Source of the DNA: Halochromatium roseum
GTDB lineage: Bacteria > Pseudomonadota > Gammaproteobacteria > Chromatiales > Chromatiaceae
DNA length: 64,000 nucleotides
Assembly (NCBI RefSeq): GCF_016653315.1
Contig: NZ_NHSH01000064.1
Location: 1 to 64,000 of the forward strand
Direction: 5' to 3'
Of this stretch, positions 2,779-52,622 are shown one piece after another (position 1 is the stretch's first letter; the number at the start of each line of letters is the position of its first letter). A program made the position numbers and the translations under genes. The notes beneath the pieces were generated by a model, which had not been told where the DNA came from, did not search any database, and saw only the letters and a list, made by a program, of their open reading frames with translations.

Positions 2779-3050
2779 TCACCCAGGTCGCCGTGGTTGC
2801 CGATCAGGGCTGGATTGGCGCCGCTGTGATCAGGCTCAACCCGCTGATGAGCGGGCCGACCTCAAGCTTGCTCATCAGGTGTCGATTTGACACGGGTCGG
2901 ATCGACACATGTATCCAATCAACACGCCCGCCTCTCGCGCGGGTGCGACTGCTCGGCCTGTACAGTGCAGCCTGTTGGACCCTGCGATGATCCCAAGGCT
3001 TGGCATGTCATCTGCATTGCGCTTGGTTCACTGAAAAACCACGGAGCATG

Positions 3051-3368
3051 ATGACGATGAATGATGAACGGCATTCGACGGCGCGCCCGTTTGCGACCTT
3101 GACGAAGATCAGCATTGGGCTCTCAGCGGGCGCCGCCTTGGCGCTCGCCGTCGGCTGCAACGGGACCGATATGGGCACGCTGGAAGAGCAGGGTCTCCAG
3201 GAGCCGAAGCAGCCGGAGTGGAATTACAAACAGCCCCAGACATCGCAAGCACCCAACCCGAACCCAAGCGCGGGTGGCACGATGGGCAACCCGAATGATG
3301 GCGCACTGTACGGTGCCCCGGGTGATGAGCCAGTAGGGAATCTCAGCGACGGCCAGAGCCAACGCTGA
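3051..3368 (+). CDS. Small predicted lipoprotein
   Basis: About 105 residues. A basic N-terminus, hydrophobic stretch and a lipobox-like A-V-G-C around residue 35 suggest signal peptidase II processing and a membrane-anchored periplasmic product. The mature part is short, rich in Pro, Gln, Asn and Gly, and probably disordered. A GGAG at 3043-3046 is best spaced for ATG 3051 or 3057; the more upstream in-frame start at 3000 has no such site. No family recognised. Confidence 0.6.
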   Translation: MTMNDERHSTARPFATLTKISIGLSAGAALALAVGCNGTDMGTLEEQGLQEPKQPEWNYKQPQTSQAPNPNPSAGGTMGNPNDGALYGAPGDEPVGNLSDGQSQR

Positions 3369-3547
3369 CCCTCGCTCGTCCGCGCCGGGGCGAAGATCAG
3401 GAGGTTTCTGATGCGCTCCCGAGCGCCCGAACACGAGCGCTGGTCCAGATTTAAAATTCCAGAAGGGCCAGATTGTGGATTGTCAAATACGCACTACGCA
3501 GAGGCTGCTACCTTAGCTCCCGGAACCATCCACTCCTCCTTATAAAC

Positions 3548-3584
3548 ACCGCTCGCGCTGCAGTCAGCTCGGGCGGTTTTTTTT
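3548..3584 (+). terminator. Intrinsic terminator
   Basis: A 13-bp stem (ACCGCTCGCGCTG against CAGCTCGGGCGGT, with one G-T pair and one mismatch) with a CAGT loop, followed directly by eight T. It lies 180 nt after the nearest upstream plus-strand gene, so it may end a long 3' leader of the lipoprotein mRNA or an unannotated small RNA. Confidence 0.8.
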
Positions 3585-3596
3585 GTCCGGCTGGCG

Positions 3597-3652
3597 CGAA
3601 CCTGTCACAACAGGACCGTCACAACAGGACTGTCACAACAGGACTGTCACAA
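3597..3652. repeat. Four 14-bp tandem repeats
   Basis: Three near-identical copies of CAGGACTGTCACAA (3611-3652) preceded by one degenerate copy (3597-3610). The last copy overlaps the stop codon of the minus-strand BON protein. Confidence 0.85.
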
Positions 3653-4444
3653 TAGCCGCTCAATGATCAGGCGCGAATCGACCTCGCGCACCCCGGGGAT
3701 CTCGCTCGCAATGGTCTCGGCAACGCTACGCTCGGCCGCGGAGGTGACCGAGCCGCTCAGTGTCACCACCGACTCGCTCACCTTGATCTCAATAGCACGG
3801 TCGCTCACCGTCGTATCGGACTGCAGTAAGGCCCGCAAACGGCTGCTGATCCAATCATCGCCTCGCTCCAACTGCTCGGCACGTCCTTGCTGCTCGCGCT
3901 CGTCGGCGATCAGGCCGGGATCGACACTGATGTAATTGAAGACCTCGTTGACGCCTTCGGTGCTTTCCGCCATCGCGGCGATCCGATCCTTGGTGGCCGA
4001 GGTGCCGACTTGGCCGTTCAATCGCACCACGCCACGCTCGACCTCAATCTGGATATCCAGAGGTAGATTGCTGACCTGCCAGCGCAGACGTTGGTGCAAC
4101 CGGGCAGCAGTGGTTCGATCCTGAACCTCGCTGATCAAGCCGCTGTTGACCTCCGGCATCGGCGCATCCAACGCCAACGCCGATTCAACCTCGGCGTCAT
4201 TCCCAGCGATCAGCCGCGCGAGCTGCATCGCCAGATTGGCTTCGATCTCATTGGCCACAGCACCGTCGAGACGCAATCCGGCATCGCTTGATCGCACGTC
4301 GATGGCATAACCGCCAAGCAGCGGGTTCATGTCGATCAGCACCTGCGCCTTGGCCGCGGTCTCGGCAGGCAGAGCCGTCTCGGCGCTCGCTGGTAGGCTG
4401 ATAACCCCAAACAGGACGGCGGTCAGGATAAAGCCCTGATGCAT
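3647..4444 (-). CDS. Exported BON-domain protein
   Basis: 265 residues with a signal peptide (cleavage likely after PASA, about residue 20). Two clear BON domains occupy about residues 115-180 and 195-265, each with the V-x-L-x-G-x-V pattern (VVRLNGQVG, VVTLSGSVT); a third degenerate unit (about 30-95, LRLDGAVANE) precedes them. BON domains bind phospholipid or other surfaces, as in OsmY, and the product should be periplasmic. A GAGGAG lies 7 nt upstream of the chosen ATG. The gene follows the DUF4168 gene on the same strand but a strong terminator separates them, so it likely has its own promoter. Confidence 0.85.
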   Translation of the reverse strand: MHQGFILTAVLFGVISLPASAETALPAETAAKAQVLIDMNPLLGGYAIDVRSSDAGLRLDGAVANEIEANLAMQLARLIAGNDAEVESALALDAPMPEVNSGLISEVQDRTTAARLHQRLRWQVSNLPLDIQIEVERGVVRLNGQVGTSATKDRIAAMAESTEGVNEVFNYISVDPGLIADEREQQGRAEQLERGDDWISSRLRALLQSDTTVSDRAIEIKVSESVVTLSGSVTSAAERSVAETIASEIPGVREVDSRLIIERLL

Positions 4445-36398: not shown

Positions 36399-39556
<3,158 letters not shown>

Positions 39557-39560
<4 letters not shown>

Positions 39561-40765
39561 GGCTGCAACCATTCCATCACCGGGCGCGACAGGAAGGTCT
39601 CCAGCTCGATCCCGTCTCCGCCGACCAGCAGGGTGCGATCGGGCGCGAACGCCGCGACGAAGGCGGCCATGCCGGGCAGGGCATCGCGCCGGCGGCCGCT
39701 CTTCACCTCGATCGCCAACAGACGCTTGCCGTCGCGAACCACGAAGTCCACTTCCCGATTCTTTTCGCGCCAGTAGAACAACTCGCAGTCGCCGCGCTGG
39801 GCGGCGTTGGCCAAGTGCGCGCCGACCGCCGATTCCACCAACCGGCCATAGAAGGAGGGGTCGGCTCGGGCCTCTTCGGGAGACAGTCCTGCCACTGCGG
39901 TCATCAGGGCGTTGTTCAGAACTTGCAGCTTGGGACTGGACGCGCGCTGGCGCACGGCCTGGCCGGCAAACTTCTGCAGGCCGGTCAGCATCCCCGCCGC
40001 CGCCAGCAGATCGAGATAGTGGGCCAGCGTGGTCGTGTTACCGGCATCCTGCAACTGGCCGAGCATCTTGGTGAAGGACAGGACCTGTCCGGAGTAGCGG
40101 CAGCCCAGCTCAAACAGACGACGTAGCAGTGCCGGCTTGTCCACGCGGGTCAGCAGCAGCACGTCACGCGAGATGCTGGTTTCCACGAGCGAATCCAGCA
40201 CGTAACGCCGCCAGCGTGCGGCTTCCACAACCAGTGGCGCGGCGCCAGGGTAACCGCCGAAATACAGATAGTCCTCAAGCGAGAACTCAAAGGCCGCGCG
40301 CATTTCGTCTAACGACCAATGCGGCAGATGCAGGGTCTCGAAGCGGCCGGCGAGGCTCTCGCTGAGCCCGCGCTGGATCAGCAACGGCGACGAGCCCAGC
40401 AGCACCACCTGCAATGGCCGACGGCGGCGCGTGTCCTCGTCCCACAGGTGCTTGACGGATTCCGACCACTGCTCGACCTTCTGCACCTCGTCGATCACCA
40501 GCAACCCGCCATCCGCGCCGGCTTCCAACCGCGCCGCCTCCCACTGCTGCCGCAGCCAAGCACCATCGCGAAGCATCGGCTCATCGGCACTGACAAAGCG
40601 GACTAGGCGCTGCAACGTCTCGGTCACCTGCTGCACCAGCGTGGTCTTGCCAACCTGGCGAGCACCGGTCACCACCTGCACATGACGCCGAGGCTCTGCC
40701 AGCCTTCGGGCCAGTTCGGCTGCCTGGGGGCGTTGGTAGTCGTTTTCCATGTTTACGCTTTTCAT
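39557..40765 (-). CDS. AAA_14/DUF4143 ATPase
   Basis: 402 residues. N-terminal AAA_14 domain with Walker A GARQVGKTTLVQ (about 34-45) and Walker B GGLLVIDEVQK, then a winged-helix region and a DUF4143 domain (about 200-370) with the EVDFVVRDGKRLLAIEVKSG end, which resembles a PD-(D/E)XK nuclease core (E-V-D, E-V-K). Such ATPases are common accessory genes near restriction loci, with unknown function. ATG 40765 or 40750 are possible starts; a palindrome covers this region. ATGA overlap with hsdR couples them. Confidence 0.85.
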
Positions 40766-40806: not shown

Positions 40807-41424
40807 TCAAGCGACCGCCTCCAGCAGTGCATCCCGAAAATGGCAAAAACTCTGTGAGCGATTGCGCTCCGGCTCGATCACCCCGCCGAGCGTCCGCGCC
40901 GCCTCGATCTTGCGCAGGCCGCCCTTGAAATAACCACGCCGCTGCATGATTCGCTCGAAGACTTCCCAGGTGCCGCCGGCAATGGCGTCAGGATTTCGAT
41001 AACCCTGCTGGTTCGGAACTGTCGCAGAGAGGCGCGGGTACGCCAAACGCACTGCCGTCCAATCGCCGAAATACCAGGCCTCCAGTTCCTCGATGGCAAT
41101 ACGATTCACGAGTTGCCAAGGCAGACCGCCAGCGCGGCTCCTGGAACAGAGGCAGGACCGGTGCGCAACGGCTTCCAGCCGTTGCTTCAGGCCCAGGCAA
41201 TCCTCGTCGTCACGATCCACCACGACCAAGATGCGCCAGTCGGCGGGGAGCCAGGTCGCGTAGCCGCGCAGCCGTGCCTCCAACTTTCCCAGCAGGTCAG
41301 TCTTGCCTTGGAAGGCGTGCACCTCGAAGGTCCTGTCCTGCGGCAACAGACGCGGCAGCAGGGCGCGCAGAAAAGCCTCCATCGAAGGCTCCTCGACCAA
41401 TAGCTCGAGATGCGAAGCCCTCAT
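40807..41424 (-). CDS. DUF4276-family TOPRIM-like protein
   Basis: 205 residues. [20 protein letters not shown] at the N-terminus (acidic E-E and E of a TOPRIM first motif) and [12 protein letters not shown] (about 67-78, the D-x-D motif) suggest a TOPRIM-like metal site. C-terminal ELEAWYFGD and INRSQSF-like end match DUF4276. The start overlaps the stop of the AAA ATPase by ATGA, so the two make a two-gene module comparable in layout to OLD-type or AriA-AriB (PARIS) systems. A nuclease role is inferred, not shown. Confidence 0.8.
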
Positions 41425-42665
41425 GCGGAGCGTCCGCCTTTCAGCGGCCGGGTCGGCGCGCCTTGGTTAACAAGTGGATCTCCGACACCAAGCTGGCCCT
41501 CCATCCACAGATGGCCGAGCAGTGCCCCCTGCTCGGTGAATGCGCGCACACCCGTCAAGTCCTCGGCACGCCGCGTCTGGGTATAACCCTGCTCATCGCG
41601 CCAGAGCACCCGCACCTCTTGCGGTCGCAGCGCGTTGAGAAAAAACGGCGAATGGGTGGTGACGAGCAACTGCGTCGCGGCCGTGGCCGCGCGACACTCC
41701 TCGGCCAGCTCCGGCAGCAGCCTTGGGTGCAGGAAGTTCTCCGGCTCCTCGATGCCAATGAACGGCGGTGGGCTGGGATCGTAGAGCAGGACCAGATAGG
41801 CCAGCATCTTTAGCGTACCGTCCGAGGCAAAGCGGGCCAAAACCGGGTGACTGAACGGCGCATCCTTGATCTGCAACAGCAATCGGCCATCCGGCATGGT
41901 GTCGGCCAAGACGCGCTCGATGCGCGGCACCCGTTGGCGCAATACCTCGAAGATGCGCTCCAGCCGGTCGCCGTGCCGCTCTACCAGGTGCTGGATCACA
42001 TTGGCCAGATTGTCTCCGGTTCGCGACAGCCGCTCCTGCGGCCCCGCCTCGGGCTGGCCCCGTGCGCTATCGGCCGAGAGGTACGAGACATACCAGCCGG
42101 TGATGAACTCCCGCAGTGCCGCCGCGCGCGGATGGTCCGCGAATTGCCCGAGCGCGTTGACCGCCAGAAGATCGGGCGACTTAAGCGGGATCTCGATGCG
42201 CTGGTCCTGTTCGTCCGGCGCCTCGCCGCTTGCGGCACGGCCCAGTCCCTCCCGATAGTCTAGGAAGCGGAAGGGCCTCCCCCGCTGACCGCGACGCCAT
42301 TGCAGCCACTCCTCGACCACCAGCGGTGCGCCGTCGCGCTCATCCACCGCCAGGTGATAGGTGATCAGCGGATAGCCCGGCTCCTTGTACTTGACCTCGA
42401 TCACCACCGGCCCGTCGCTTCCGCGCGTCTTCAGCTCCTTTGACCGCCCGCGCTTGTCCCAGGCGCGGCGCAGTCCCAGCTCGAAGCACTCGGAGAGGAA
42501 CGCAAAGATGTCGAACACCGTGGACTTGCCACTGCCGTTGGGGCCGAGCAGCACCGTCAGCGGCGTCAGCTCCTTGAATTCCACCTCGCGCAGGGCGCGG
42601 AAGTTCTGCACCTTTAGGTATTCAATGCGCGCTGGGATGGGCGCAGTGACGTTGGCGGGGCTCAT
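41421..42665 (-). CDS. AAA ATPase of OLD/AriA type (AAA_15/AAA_21)
   Basis: 414 residues. SMC/ABC-like ATPase with Walker [10 protein letters not shown] (41-49) after the typical [17 protein letters not shown] opening, and Walker B with following Glu [13 protein letters not shown] plus the H-loop [10 protein letters not shown]. No fused TOPRIM; the TOPRIM-like domain is the next gene. ATGA overlaps join it to HsdS upstream and DUF4276 downstream. Relatives in defence systems sense phage components or restriction inhibitors; that role here is inferred from location. Confidence 0.88.
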
Positions 42666-44437
42666 GGCGTCGTCTCGAGGACTCGTTCCGCTTCCTTCAC
42701 GCGCAACTCGCCGGAGAGGAGTTTGGGGAGGAGGTAGTCGCGGAGATCGGCGATTTTCGAGGATTCCTGCAATGATGCCAGCAACAGATCAAAAATTGGC
42801 GCAACAACGGCCTCAAACGCTGACACAATCTCGCCTGCCGGCTTTGCCACCAGCAACCCGTCAAAAGTGGCGCGTGTGATGGTATCGAACACTGATCCGT
42901 GAGTCCGCTGCTTCAGATTGGCAACGGCCGTCTGCATGAGAAGGTACAAATGGCAAAAGGAGGCATCGTCGCCGGGCAACAGTCCGTAGCAGGATTGATT
43001 GAAAGCCATCGGAGAACCTGCCATTGCCAGTTTCCCAACAGTCCCTCGCGCAGAGATGATCGTGCATCCTTTGGGGACCATTCTCGCCGCACTATTGAGC
43101 AAACCATCGTCGGTGATGCGCTCGGAGGTGTCGAATACCCATATCTCACCGTCGCTCGGCGCGTCTTTGACGGAGTACCAGGGGACGTCGCCACCCCAGT
43201 AGGCTGGCTCAGATCGCTTCGGGGTTCCGCCGCTTACAAGCGTGCTAACGCTGGATAGCGCCGCTGCCTCCAACCCCTCTGGCACGGGGCCGATGTCGGA
43301 ATCGACGAAGCAGGTGGGCAGGGCGTCGAAGACGGGCTGGGGCATGGAGGGGAAGGCTGTGCTGCCTGCGGCCTTGGCCTTGACCGGCTCGAAGTCCACG
43401 AACCAAGCACGGAAGATGGCCCGCGCCAGCCGCTCCAGCGCTTGGGCCGTCCGCCGGTTCTGCTCGATCTTGTCGTCGAGCGCGCCGAGAACGGCGGCGA
43501 TGGCGCGTTGTTCTCGAAGCGGTGGAATATGAAACTCAAATTGAGGAACGTCGCGACATTTGAGGCTATCGAACACAGCCCCTACGTTCAGATACGTTCT
43601 GATCTGCTCCCACCATTGCGGGCCGCGAACAAGCCAGCGCAAGAATGGGGGGTAAACAGAACTGCCGTCCGCCCTTAAAAGAACTAAGTTTTGTCCGAGC
43701 GCGAAGGTTTCTCCTGGGGAGACGTAGCTGGTTTCTCCCGGATTACAGCGCCGTGAGAGCACTACATCGTGCGCCTGAGGATTGGCCTTTAATGTCCACT
43801 CTAGGAAATCAGACTCCGAAATTCGACGTGCTGAAGAAAAGTCTAAACGCCCACGACTCATTTGCGGAATTGCGATGTAGCGATAGGCACCGTCCTGAAC
43901 CTCGGCCGGGGTCTTGTGTAAACAATCGTGCAATCTGACACCGGCTTCTTCCAGGGTCATCGTTTTCCAATCATCAGTTGCCGCGCGCTTTTTCCTCGTT
44001 GTGCCTGCGCGGGATATCGCGCTTCCTGAGCCGAGTTCCCAAACGGGGTTCGGGAGCAAGTTGGGATGTGAGCCCACATCCTCATCCTCGGGTGCGGCAG
44101 GGGCGCTATCTGCGTGCCGTATTACCACATACCCCGCTTCAATCTCCTCCCGAAACGCCTCAGGAATACGCGCCCAATCAACGATCTGCACCAGGATCGG
44201 CAGGTCGCTGTCAGAGAAAGCGGCGGCGATCTCATCCAGGTCGGGCTGCCGGCGGCTGAGGTCATCGGGCTGACGCACGACCAAATCCAGATCGCTGGCG
44301 TCGTAATGATCGCCGTTGACGCGGCTACCGTAGGCCCAGACCTCAGCGTGAGGCAGATAACGGCGCAGGATGTCCTGAACGATCGCCAGGTAACGCGTGG
44401 GCAGGTGCAGAGCCGGGCGGTCGGAGTCGCTGCTCAT
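42662..44437 (-). CDS. hsdS: MntA-like nucleotidyltransferase fused to type I specificity subunit HsdS
   Basis: 591 residues. Residues about 10-110 form a minimal nucleotidyltransferase domain with the exact GSX10DXD active site (Gly37-Ser38, Asp49, Asp51) and a typical end ([14 protein letters not shown]...YVVI). An acidic/Ser/Gly linker (about 110-155) leads into a complete HsdS: first target recognition domain, central conserved helix ([25 protein letters not shown]), second recognition domain, and distal helix ending in [16 protein letters not shown]. The recognition halves set DNA target; the NTase domain matches antitoxins that AMPylate HEPN toxins. The HEPN gene lies directly upstream with ATGA overlap. 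No stop or frame break separates the two parts. Confidence 0.92.
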
Positions 44438-44868
44438 GTCGCCTCCTTGCCGAGCTTGGCGTCCAACCGATCCGCCAGTCGCGAGACATCCTCTAGGAAT
44501 CCGGGGATCAGCGTCAGTGTCTCCCTGGCGAAGGCCTCGCCATAATCGTGGGCGGTATCGTTGCGATTGTCGCGGTACTGAAACCAGCGCTCGACCTCCT
44601 CCAAGGTCAGCAGGTCATGCACCGCAGCGAGGCGGAGAATGTCCTTGATGGGCGTGGATTCGAGCTTTCGGGCGCCGTGACCGAACGCCTTCAGGGCCTT
44701 CTTGAGCAGCTTGAAGGCGATTTCCTGCGTCAGTTCATAACCCTTGACGATGGCGTTGCGAAACACCTCCTGCTCGATGCTGTCGGGCTCGGCGCTTTGG
44801 TACAGCCGCAACGACTGCTGCAGGGTCTCGATGCAGCGGCGTAGATGATCGAGATTCAGATAACGCAT
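44434..44868 (-). CDS. HepT-like HEPN toxin (HI0074 family)
   Basis: 144 residues, helical HEPN fold of the nucleotidyltransferase-substrate-binding (HI0074) type. The RNase motif RX4HXY is intact: Arg102, His107, Tyr109 in RNDTAHDY. In MntA-HepT pairs the HEPN protein is an RNase toxin and the MNT protein AMPylates the motif tyrosine. Here the partner NTase is the N-terminus of HsdS, next gene, 4-bp overlap. hsdM lies 54 bp upstream on the same strand. Confidence 0.9.
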   Translation of the reverse strand: MRYLNLDHLRRCIETLQQSLRLYQSAEPDSIEQEVFRNAIVKGYELTQEIAFKLLKKALKAFGHGARKLESTPIKDILRLAAVHDLLTLEEVERWFQYRDNRNDTAHDYGEAFARETLTLIPGFLEDVSRLADRLDAKLGKEAT

Positions 44869-44922: not shown

Positions 44923-46629
44923 TCAGCCATGACCCACCCCGTTCAGCCGCTCGCGCACCACGCCCATCAACCGCTCTCCTTCCACGAAGCAGGCCTCCAG
45001 CTCCGCTAACAGGCGCGGGTATTTCTCCTCAAAAGGCTCGCCGTCGTCCTCCTGCGCCTCGGCGCCGACATAGCGGCCGGGGGTGAGCACGAAGCCGTGC
45101 TTGGCGATGCCCTCGATGGTCTCGGCCTTGCAGAAGCCGGGGATGTCGCGGTATTCCCAGCTGCCGTGCCCGCCTTCAGCAACAGAGGCCTCGTCCCACC
45201 AATCGGGCGCCGGCTCGCCGCGCCACTGGCGGAAGGCGTAAACGATGCGGCCGATGTCGGAATCGGCGTTCGGGTCGCCCATGCCGTCGGCCAGCAGGGT
45301 CTCGCCGTCGTCGCCGCCGGTGAGCACGCGCAGGGTGCGGGTGCGCAGGGTACCGAGCTTGCGCGCATCGATGAACAGGGTTTCGCCGCTGCGGTCGCGG
45401 CCGCCATGGGGCAGGTTCTTGCCGGTCTTGTCGCGGGTCAGGAACCAGAGGCAGGCAGGGATGCCGGTGGTAAGGAAGAGCTGCGCTGGCAGCGCGACGA
45501 TGCAGTCCACCAGGTCGGCCTCGACGATGCGCTGGCGGATCGCGCCCTCGCCGCCGGCACCGCTGGAGAGCGAGCCATTGGCCATGACGAAGCCGGCCAC
45601 CCCGCCGCCTTTGCCCCCGTTTGAGATAGGCGGCGGCGAGAGATGGTGGACGAAGTGCTGAATCCAGGCGTAGTTGGCATTGCCGACCGGCGGCGTGCCA
45701 AAGCGCCAGCGCACATCCTCGGCCAGCAGCCTCCCCGACCAGTCCGAGATGTTGAACGGCGGATTGGCGAGGATGTAGTCGGCCTTGAGGTCCGGATGCA
45801 AGTTGCGCAGGAAGCTGTCGGCGGGCTGCGCGCCAAGGTTGGCCTCGATGCCGCGGATGGCGAGGTTCATGTGCGCCAGCCGCCAGGTGGTGGGGTTCGA
45901 CTCCTGGCCGAAGATCGAGATGTCAGTCTTCTGCCCGCCGTGGGCCTCGACGAAGCGCTCCGACTGCACGAACATACCGGCCGAGCCGCAGCAGGGGTCG
46001 TAGACGCGGCCCTCGTAGGGCTCGAGCATCTCGACCAGGAGCCGCACGATGCAGCGCGGGGTGAAGAACTCACCGCCGAGCTTGCCCTCGGCCTGGGCGA
46101 ACTTGCCGAGGAAGTATTCGTAGACGCGACCCAGCGTGTCACGGGCCTTGGCGCGGTCGCCCTTGAAGCCGATATCGGCGATCAGGTCGATCAGCCCCTT
46201 CATCTTCTCCGGTGCGATGCCGCGGCGTGCGTAGTCGCGCGGCAGCTTGCCCTTGAGGTTTGGGTTGTCGCGCTCGACGGCGAGGATGGCGTCGTCGATC
46301 AGCGTGGCGATGTCGGGCCGTGCGGCCTGGTTCTGCAGGTTCTGCCAGCGTGCCTCGGGCGGCACCCAGAAGACCCGCTCGGCGGTGTATTCGTCGCGGT
46401 TCTCCAGCAGGCCTTCGAGCTGCGGCCCGGTGATGCCGTCGGCTGTGAGTTCCGCCTCAAGCTCGTCGCGGCGGGCCTCGAAGGCGTCGGCGATGTACTT
46501 CAGGAACAGCAGTCCGAGCACGACGTGCTTGTATTCGGCGGCGTCGATCTGGCCGCGCAGCGTATCCGCCGCCTTCCAGAGGATCTCGGCGCGGGCCAGA
46601 TCGGTGTTGTTGGTCTCTGGGCTCGCCAT
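44923..46629 (-). CDS. hsdM: Type I restriction enzyme, M subunit
   Basis: 568 residues from ATG 46629, which has GGAG at a spacing of 6 nt; a longer in-frame start exists but is unsupported. N-terminal HsdM_N helical domain (about 8-150), then the N6-adenine methylase with motif [11 protein letters not shown] and motif IV NPPFN. With HsdS it methylates the target, with HsdR it forms the nuclease. First gene of the defence operon. Confidence 0.95.
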
Positions 46630-47013
46630 CAGGGCTCCATCTCGAACTCGGCGCGATGCAGTCCAGGCTGGCCAATGATCACCGGTCAAGTCCTGTCCGC
46701 TCGCTAAACCATCATATTAACGCGTCGCCGCAGGTTCCCCCAAGATGTCCCGGCTCCTCGCACTCGGGCGCGGTGCAATTGATGCAGGCATAGCTGCTGC
46801 GCGGGTGCAGCTAATCCCGTTCCAGAAGCGGATGTTGCAATCGGCATGGGCTTGGGTACCAAGACAACCAAGATGCTCCAGTAGGCAGCCCAGGTCTGAC
46901 GGCAACCACCGCGCCGGGCCTGCTTGCCGTCGCGCTACCGCAGTTGCAGAGCAGCTAGGCTGCGCTAGCACAGGCACCGGATATCCTGCGCCTCTGCGAG
47001 GCCGGCGCCTCTG
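46630..47013. other. Intergenic stretch between the RimK-like gene and hsdM
   Basis: 384 bp with no supported gene. It should contain the hsd operon promoter; AT-rich CATCATATTAA (about 46707) is the only promoter-like composition. Short frames here have no coding look. Confidence 0.5.
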
Positions 47014-51629: not shown

Positions 51630-52622
51630 TTAATGATCCTTGCGCTGCTTAGCTAGCCAGGCTTCGATGAAGGCTGGATCAAGCCCCTTGAGTCGCTCCT
51701 CGGGATCGAGCCCCTTGAGTCGCTCTTCGGGATCAAGCCCCTTGAGTCGCTCTTCGGGATCAAGCCCCTTGAGTCGCTCCTCGGGATCGAGCCCCTTGAG
51801 TCGATCCTCGGGATCGAGCCCCTTGAGCCGATCCTCGGGATCAAGCTGATCAAGATAGTGCTTGACGAGCCACTCACGGGCTTCGCGTTTCATATCTTCT
51901 GTGGTGTGCGCCATGTTGCCCTCTCCGAACCTATAGTGCGCGAGTAGATTATGCAGGTGAACACCGATCTCGCTGCGCGGGCAGTACTGTTCAAGCGCCG
52001 CGCGTCGGTGCCGCTCATCACTGGAGAATAGCCCCCAAGGGGCATTATGCGGCAGCCGGCGGAGCTGGTTGATGACGACGAGGCGTACTTCACGCATGCC
52101 GGCCTGGAGCCGATAGATGCCCGGTGTTTGACTCCTTTGACAACTCCCAGCGGGCAGTTGTTTGATCAGCTTGCGTGGAAAGTGGGTCGCGATGGCGTAG
52201 CTGCGAAAGTCTGCCGCCGGTAGCAGCGGGTAAGCTCTGCGCGGCTCGACGACGGGCGTGCCAGGGTCTTGATCAGCGGCCGGCAACGGGCGCAGCGCGC
52301 GGATGGAGGCGAGCTTGCGGTAGGTGACGTAGTGGCTGTTGAGCTCTTCGAGCGCCCAGGCGTCGAAGACGGCGCCGCTGGCCTTGAAGCTGAGCAGATT
52401 ATGCGCGACGAGCTCTTCCAGTCCGTCGGGGCGCTGTTCCGGGGAGCGAACGCGCTGAATGTCTTGCGGCGCTGGGCGCTGCTCGATGATGAGCACGTCG
52501 AGCCTCTGGCTGCGCAGGGCCAGTTCCTCTTCGGTGCTGACGTTGTAGGGTAGCCCGTTAAGGGCATCAGCGAGGGCTTGGCCAAGCAGTGCGCGCCAGG
52601 GGATGCGTTGATCGCGACTCAT
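51630..52622 (-). CDS. Rpn-like (PD-(D/E)XK-type) protein with C-terminal 9-residue repeats
   Basis: 330 residues. The first 230 residues resemble Rpn/YhgA-like recombination-promoting nuclease-associated proteins (RLDVLIIEQRP..., EELVAHNLLSFKA, ALEELNSHYVTYRKLASI). The C-terminus carries six RLKGLDPE[ED] units encoded by 27-bp repeats, the extension seen in many such proteins of gammaproteobacteria. A second, 195-bp copy of its 5' end and upstream DNA lies at 54923-55118. Start at 52622. Confidence 0.75.
   Translation of the reverse strand: MSRDQRIPWRALLGQALADALNGLPYNVSTEEELALRSQRLDVLIIEQRPAPQDIQRVRSPEQRPDGLEELVAHNLLSFKASGAVFDAWALEELNSHYVTYRKLASIRALRPLPAADQDPGTPVVEPRRAYPLLPAADFRSYAIATHFPRKLIKQLPAGSCQRSQTPGIYRLQAGMREVRLVVINQLRRLPHNAPWGLFSSDERHRRAALEQYCPRSEIGVHLHNLLAHYRFGEGNMAHTTEDMKREAREWLVKHYLDQLDPEDRLKGLDPEDRLKGLDPEERLKGLDPEERLKGLDPEERLKGLDPEERLKGLDPAFIEAWLAKQRKDH
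51676..51837. repeat. Six 27-bp tandem repeats in the Rpn-like gene
   Basis: Six head-to-tail 27-bp units (GGATCAAGCCCCTTGAGTCG... type) encode the RLKGLDPEE repeats on the minus strand. Copies differ by one to three bases; two central ones are identical, which suggests recent copy-number change. Confidence 0.95.

Follow-up and report, generated by a model that had tools for sequence, protein, structure and literature searches.

The operon and its fused specificity subunit

We describe a type I restriction-modification (R-M) operon of Halochromatium roseum in which the specificity subunit HsdS carries an N-terminal nucleotidyltransferase (NTase) domain and is encoded directly behind a HEPN protein, a candidate RNase toxin. 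The operon lies in a stretch of 64,000 nucleotides that was analyzed as a whole and is referred to here as the window. All genes of the operon are on the minus strand, in the order hsdM, HEPN, NTase-HsdS, AAA_21, DUF4276, AAA_14/DUF4143 and hsdR. Neighboring genes overlap by 4 bp at three junctions, including those between the HEPN and fusion genes (ATGA) and between the fusion and AAA_21 genes, and the open reading frames (ORFs) for AAA_14/DUF4143 and hsdR overlap by 16 bp. The first gene, hsdM (44923..46689), encodes the N6-adenine methyltransferase subunit (PF02384, E 7.3e-91; HsdM_N, E 1.3e-25), and the last, hsdR (36399..39572), the restriction and translocation subunit (TIGR00348, 501.8 bits, above the cut-off; T1RH-like_C and HSDR_N). 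The operon thus combines hsdM, hsdS and hsdR, as expected of a type I R-M system. What we take to be the NPPF motif of HsdM and the Walker A and DEAH motifs of HsdR are present by eye. Since these motifs are in place and the subunits are covered by their Pfam matches, the R-M system appears to be functional, as far as its sequence tells.

The fusion gene (42662..44437) is a single open frame of 591 codons. The NTase domain, of the MNT kind, occupies residues ~5-110 (44108..44425). It matches PF01909 at residues 21-110 with 29.2 bits (cut-off 21), and its GSX10DXD site consists of G37, S38, D49 and D51, with Gln84 in place of a third acid. The type I specificity subunit follows at residues ~156-588 (42674..43972), where Methylase_S is matched in two stretches (67.5 bits) and the PADLOC profile Specificity_I covers residues 179-588 (E 3.9e-92). 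In an AlphaFold2 (AF2) model the NTase domain is predicted with a pLDDT (predicted local distance difference test) of ~93 and HsdS begins at residue 156; residues 114-153 (43979..44098) fall below 50 and are predicted to be a disordered tether. An earlier reading of the window from its sequence only had proposed that the two domains are genuinely fused. The single open frame, the Pfam and PADLOC domains, the AF2 model and the recurrence of the fusion, including a counterpart in Thiocapsa (locus L047), bear this out, and by the modeled architecture the NTase would be tethered to HsdS, as that reading also held. Its coordinates, ORFs, 4-bp overlap and exact RX4HXY and GSX10DXD motifs were likewise reproduced.

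The possibility that the linker is an inserted genomic repeat was dropped, as one search of the window's own genome with the linker DNA matched only the linker. The same genome holds a short piece (G000:C58:42037-42189) that is 65-69% identical to ~residues 74-122 of the NTase part of the fusion and is perhaps a relic of a second copy.

The HEPN protein and its relationship to the NTase

The HEPN gene (44434..44868) encodes a protein of 144 residues that matches PF08780 (NTase_sub_bind) with 76.5 bits (cut-off 31.8; E 2.3e-21) and carries an exact R102-X4-H107-X-Y109 motif. Its match to PF01934 (HepT-like) is below threshold (20.2 bits, cut-off 23.5). Class I HEPN/MNT systems have been defined by a PF01934 or PF08780 HEPN protein with RX4HXY next to a PF01909 protein with GSX10DXD (PMC7641770), and both halves of this definition are present in the window. 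The closest solved relatives are HI0074 for the HEPN protein (E 2.3e-08, PDB search) and HI0073 for the NTase (E 1.4e-16). The HEPN protein scores 53.4 bits on the HI0074 family TIGR01987, slightly under its cut-off of 55.8, and the NTase reaches 24 bits on the NCBIfam MntA equivalog NF047752, which requires 60, so that it is not filed as MntA. The pair falls within the PF08780 branch typified by HI0073/HI0074, with MntA and HepT as cousins; Yao et al. 2020 (PMC7641770) count this branch in class I by motif. The description of the NTase as 'MntA-type' in the sequence-only reading is loose, given the nearest solved relatives and the NF047752 and TIGR01987 scores.

Compared with Thiocapsa, both parts of the pair are under purifying selection. 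The HEPN genes differ by 33 synonymous and 6 non-synonymous changes, a ratio of non-synonymous to synonymous rates (dN/dS) of 0.045, and dN/dS for the NTase is 0.10. The HEPN/NTase observation is more than chance because of the profile E-values, the motifs conserved in relatives, this selection and the AF2 domain model.

Conservation of the active sites was assessed over 127 HEPN/NTase pairs. The GS and DxD residues of the NTase are invariant (127/127), and Arg, His and Tyr of the HEPN motif are all kept in 118. Among the nine pairs without the full set, one (L052) is an alignment gap and another (L159) is represented by the farther of two HEPN proteins. At the latter locus (3040-3860) tandem HEPN genes precede an NTase-HsdS fusion; the far one lacks the catalytic His and the near one is intact.

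The third metal-binding position of the NTase varies. The third acid of Shewanella oneidensis MntA, D71, also binds Mg (PMC7641770), and it aligns with Gln84 in the window; the third acid is thus missing here, a mechanistic feature that lies outside the published motif definition. Across the 127 pairs, the window's included, this position is D in 91, Q in 27 and E in 9. Lamprobacter, Thiocapsa and Thiohalocapsa also have Gln84, and it recurs in other rows of the tree described below. We regard it as a clade trait since close relatives share it and the NTase is under purifying selection, and on the same grounds reject the idea that it reflects private decay of the NTase in the window.

Recurrence of the fusion

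Relatives were collected in three surveys and a set of named genomes. A class survey of 369 genomes used the window NTase as query (42 genomes matched), a phylum survey of 398 genomes used a profile termed A1 (73 matched), and a survey of one order, taken to be Magnetococcales, covered 48 genomes (36 matched) and overlaps the phylum survey. From the named genomes the best 80 of 454 loci, those nearest the window NTase, were used; plasmids were surveyed as well. Of 171 NTase ORFs, 148 distinct NTases were kept. This sample is biased, as A1 was built mostly from fusions (7 of 10 rows) and the class-survey query was the window's own NTase.

NTase-HsdS fusions account for 19 of the 148 distinct NTases, that is, the window and 18 others, and one more NTase is fused to HsdM. 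The sequence-only reading had named a fusion confined to this genome, or an assembly error, as what would refute it; neither fits these 18 further cases. It had also suggested checking whether a HEPN gene is always adjacent. One lies directly upstream in 18 of the 19 (17 of them outside the window), the exception being L162. In 13 of the 19 loci hsdM comes directly before the HEPN gene, and in 15 hsdR or a piece of it follows. At L056 and L156 an hsdM either sits one gene farther upstream or is part of a fusion, and L036 and L157 reach the end of their record or contig at this point. The fusion at L156 has a decayed HsdS half and that at L161 runs off its contig.

Several of these loci are informative. 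Plasmid pZMOB01 of Zymomonas mobilis carries a HEPN gene (3-392), an NTase-HsdS fusion annotated as a single protein (WP_014466389.1) and then hsdR. The Thiocapsa locus L047 has the gene order of the window minus DUF4143, and its HsdS sequence differs. Acetobacter plasmids carry the unfused order hsdM-HEPN-NTase-hsdS-hsdR, and three other plasmids carry a HEPN/NTase pair with no R-M gene within the stretch shown. A DUF559 domain lies within the HsdS half of one NTase-HsdS fusion (L041, 8699-10942).

The joins were read by eye for methionine, which covers ATG starts. Of the 18 fusions that have the HsdS start, 14 (the window among them) have no methionine from the end of the NTase to the first HsdS tryptophan or strand.

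The recognized in-frame partners of the 148 NTases are 19 HsdS, 1 HsdM and 1 YhcG-type nuclease; six other NTase ORFs longer than 180 residues overlap a HEPN gene in another frame. The NTase-HsdM fusion (L156, 3632-5695, on the same contig as L106) has 687 residues with PF01909, HsdM_N and N6_Mtase domains and its own HEPN gene ahead of it. The full order at this locus is HEPN, NTase-HsdM, HEPN and the NTase-HsdS remnant, and its two pairs fall in different clades. At L056 (1670-3121) a DUF1016/YhcG PDDEXK nuclease has a C-terminal NTase of the same family and is followed by HEPN and NTase-HsdS genes. At the same locus (1-1680) an HsdM-like protein has a DUF559 domain following its methylase domain.

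A search of a phage collection with two queries gave no NTase match, scanning viral sequences with the complete fusion protein gave nothing, and two loci on viral contigs are short, weak matches. On these searches, phage or viral carriage was rejected.

Association with R-M genes, decayed loci and phylogeny

In the class survey, 7 of 29 loci (L007-L035, the window's own excluded; flanks up to 1.5 kb) have hsdM or hsdS beside the HEPN/NTase pair, in a sample whose R-M-linked query favors R-M-linked relatives. The chance expectation of an R-M neighbor is ~0.2-0.3% per locus, from 111 HsdM_N matches in 113 other genomes with assumed sizes of 2.0-2.7 Mb.

In the order survey, 68 NTase rows were compared with the 68 best HEPN rows, weaker HEPN rows being dropped. 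An NTase lies within 600 bp for 60 of the 68 HEPN genes and a HEPN gene for 59 of the 68 NTases, leaving 9 NTases alone; in all 59 paired cases HEPN is upstream of the NTase.

Decayed relatives of the operon retain the pair. In Lamprobacter modestohalophilus (L046) most of hsdM, hsdS, AAA_21, DUF4276 and hsdR is gone through several separate gaps; HEPN and the NTase domain (95% DNA identity to the window) and the DUF4143 gene (93%) remain, with motifs intact. The 14.3-kb Thiohalocapsa locus L048 has only an hsdM scrap, HEPN and NTase left, also with intact motifs, and at L156, a presumed Magnetococcales locus, an intact NTase stands ahead of the decayed HsdS half. These loci fit a HEPN/NTase pair that is hard to lose, and its N-terminal position protects the NTase from HsdS truncation. 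The proposal in the sequence-only reading that loss of HsdS frees the toxin, as an addiction device, is contradicted at the gene level because HEPN and intact NTase persist at all three loci, where HsdS is gone or a remnant.

We placed the 127 pairs on a quick IQ-TREE phylogeny of NTase and HEPN columns, in which 18 rows carry the NTase-HsdS label. The label requires at least 15 changes, and the well-supported (starred) branches force at least 10 of them. When labels were shuffled, 27 of 500 shuffles were as low as 15, with a mean of 17.1. The 15 changes mean that the fusion was gained or lost many times, and the tree cannot tell gain from loss. Of the four members of the window's clade (support 100*), two are fused loci and two are decayed.

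Relation to known systems

Class I HEPN/MNT systems (HepT/MntA, type VII) likewise consist of an adjacent RX4HXY HEPN protein and GSX10DXD NTase, and their published definition includes PF08780/PF01909 pairs. In class I, HEPN is an RNase and MNT adenylylates the tyrosine of its motif (PMC7641770, PMC11586414). The locus described here differs in that the putative antitoxin is a domain of HsdS within a type I operon, in Gln84, and in scores below the NCBIfam cut-offs for MntA and HI0074. The gene order differs as well, with HEPN first here, whereas MNT is almost always first in the dyads of PMC3710099. In HI0073/HI0074 of Haemophilus influenzae (PDB 1no5, 1jog), by contrast, the NTase HI0073 stands alone, with 114 residues in the PDB.

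PrrC-EcoprrI provides a precedent for an RNase under the control of a type I enzyme. PrrC is an HEPN-type RNase within a type I hsd cluster that is kept latent by the R-M enzyme and released by a phage anti-restriction peptide (PMC3506569, PMC2610378). PrrC is an ABC ATPase-nuclease protein, whereas the window has a separate small HEPN protein and a putative NTase antitoxin fused to HsdS. The HEPN protein, with 144 residues and only the PF08780 and sub-threshold HepT-like matches, lacks the fusion of nuclease to ABC ATPase that marks the PrrC type. It may still work in a PrrC-like way.

Both the presence of HEPN genes in R-M operons and the idea of a guard have been published before (PMC3710099, PMC3506569). 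Anantharaman et al. 2013 (PMC3710099) describe HEPN families that cluster with R-M components or are joined to them, and propose the guard idea. They report that R-M-associated HEPN fuses to nucleases, helicases and ATPases and not to methylases; their Table 1 lists PF08780/DUF86 HEPN proteins as occasionally fused to MNT and nucleic acid methylase domains. The available text of that paper does not mention MNT fused to HsdS or HsdM, and the word 'HsdS' is absent from it. What sets the present case apart is that the fused partner is the putative antitoxin and that it is joined to the modification subunits HsdS and HsdM. Searches of openly licensed PMC papers turned up no description of the NTase-HsdS fusion. 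Positions 1-102 of the PADLOC profile PDLC03138 ('Specificity_I') match the NTase domain and the profile is labeled as specificity subunit only; because it includes the NTase, NTase-HsdS fusions are already in a database.

Cmr1 belongs to CRISPR type III-B and not to an R-M system. Going by its name alone, Cmr1-MntA (PDB 9z7q, 9z7v, 9z7x) links an MntA antitoxin to one of the subunits that make up an immunity complex; no paper on it was found in the literature searched.

Proposed function and alternatives

The operon architecture, the motifs, the recurrence of operon and fusion and the selection on the pair are matters of observation, and the same arrangement in distantly related bacteria suggests that the toxin guards the restriction enzyme. 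We propose, with a confidence that we would put at about even, that this is a class I HEPN/MNT-like pair whose antitoxin has become part of the type I modification complex, control of the toxin following the state of the enzyme much as in PrrC-EcoprrI. The HEPN protein would then be a latent RNase toxin that the R-M operon itself carries, with the MNT-kind NTase as antitoxin at the N-terminus of HsdS on a flexible tether of ~40 residues. As a domain of HsdS, the NTase is expected in every M2S1 methylase and R2M2S1 restriction complex. In a healthy complex it would keep HEPN silent by binding it and, most probably, through adenylylation of Tyr109. If the complex came under attack, for instance from an anti-restriction protein, or were engaged in failing restriction, silencing would lapse and the RNase would arrest the cell, a release likened to that of PrrC when phage T4 inhibits EcoprrI. 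We infer the toxicity of HEPN and its adenylylation from the class I HEPN/MNT literature; the fusion and the analogy with PrrC are what suggest a link between toxin control and the state of the complex, as well as the trigger.

Several points weigh against this proposal. The window fusion has an ATG at residue 160, just inside HsdS and past its first conserved tryptophan, from which a separate HsdS may start, and a methionine at the join that could serve the same purpose is present in 4 of the 18 fusions (L038, L047, L163, L165). The fusion is not required, as other relatives keep NTase and HsdS as separate genes, and the NTase survives without HsdS, the pair having outlasted it in L046 and L048. 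For the fusion L162 (genome G508) no HEPN gene was found in the locus or by a genome search at E 1e-10. Conversely, 8 of the 68 best HEPN genes in the order survey have no NTase match within 600 bp; RX4HXY is lost in three of these and kept in five (one of which, L177, lies ~200 bp from a contig end), and HEPN proteins that stand alone with an intact motif do not sit easily with a simple toxin, unless they are served by an NTase encoded elsewhere. With Gln84 at the third position, adenylylation may be weak or missing altogether. No experimental work on an NTase-HsdS fusion turned up in the literature searched.

The best-surviving alternative is that an ordinary toxin-antitoxin (TA) module settled in and stabilizes type I operons, with an antitoxin independent of the R-M complex and a neutral fusion. 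Since the NTase and HsdS genes share a few bases, a single indel would be enough to join them from time to time; unfused neighbors indeed overlap by 4 bp (L049, L057, L058), 8 bp (L037) or 1 bp (L196). The nearly random mixing of fused and unfused loci on the tree would also suit neutral gain and loss, and the NTases left without HsdS in L046 and L048 fit as well. However, all recognized in-frame partners, including HsdM and the YhcG-type nuclease, are proteins of R-M operons, and the 19 fused loci argue that the fusion is at least tolerated. We consider this alternative possible but rather unlikely.

It is improbable that the pair is not a TA system but a two-protein nucleotidyltransferase, as which HI0073/HI0074 was originally described, with HEPN as the substrate-binding partner and an NTase that adenylylates another target, perhaps an R-M subunit, to regulate restriction or modification. 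The title of the PDB entries for the nearest solved relatives, HI0073/HI0074, reads 'two-protein nucleotidyl transferase', and some motif-intact HEPN proteins have no nearby NTase. However, a substrate-binding subunit needs no RNase motif, and RX4HXY is kept in 118 of the 127 HEPN proteins; moreover, the tested pairs with these motifs are TA systems and PF08780 is part of the class definition (PMC7641770, PMC11586414). An assembly or sequencing error that merged two genes was ruled out and can be given practically no weight, with Thiocapsa L047 (whose HsdS differs), Zymomonas WP_014466389.1 and 16 other records against it and nothing found in its favor.

The proposal of an antitoxin built into the complex can be extended, more tentatively, to type I restriction enzymes. 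It would be that HsdS repeatedly, and HsdM at least once, became enzymatic keepers of a latent HEPN RNase; an adenylylating antitoxin in each complex would act as a tamper sensor, and disabling by phage or blocking by a DNA mimic would release the toxin. If true, it would supply the case so far lacking for the proposal, made in 2012, that immunity systems can be antitoxins in their own right (PMC3506569), here in a covalent version. Should the coupling hold, the operon would offer a small system showing how innate immunity and suicide join, with the tether as a covalent handle. Some annotations as 'HI0074 family' or 'specificity subunit' may hide guard systems.

Cargo genes and other features

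Three further genes of the operon are cargo genes. The AAA_21 ATPase (41421..42665) is AriA-like and matches HEC-01A (PF13304, E 2.7e-31; HEC-01A, E 1.4e-159; AriA, E 3.3e-31), and the DUF4276 protein (40807..41424) matches HEC-01B (PF14103, E 2.9e-29; HEC-01B, E 1.5e-83). This pair (40807-42665) sits between hsdS and hsdR and is perhaps a second, PARIS-like backup module within the same operon. A check of DUF4276 for PARIS-like pairing by a two-sequence AF2 model gave a mean pLDDT of 58, with no Foldseek match below 0.001, and a search for viral relatives of the DUF4276 protein found none. The AAA_14/DUF4143 ATPase (39557..40765; PF13635, PF13173; PDC-S01, E 3.7e-177) is intact in the decayed Lamprobacter locus L046 (7671-8879) and was not seen in the Thiocapsa operon.

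The window's own genome has ten HsdM_N matches, the top count among the 114 genomes searched. Elsewhere in the window (51630-52622, minus strand) an ORF of 330 residues has six nine-residue LDPE(E/D)RLKG units near its C-terminus.

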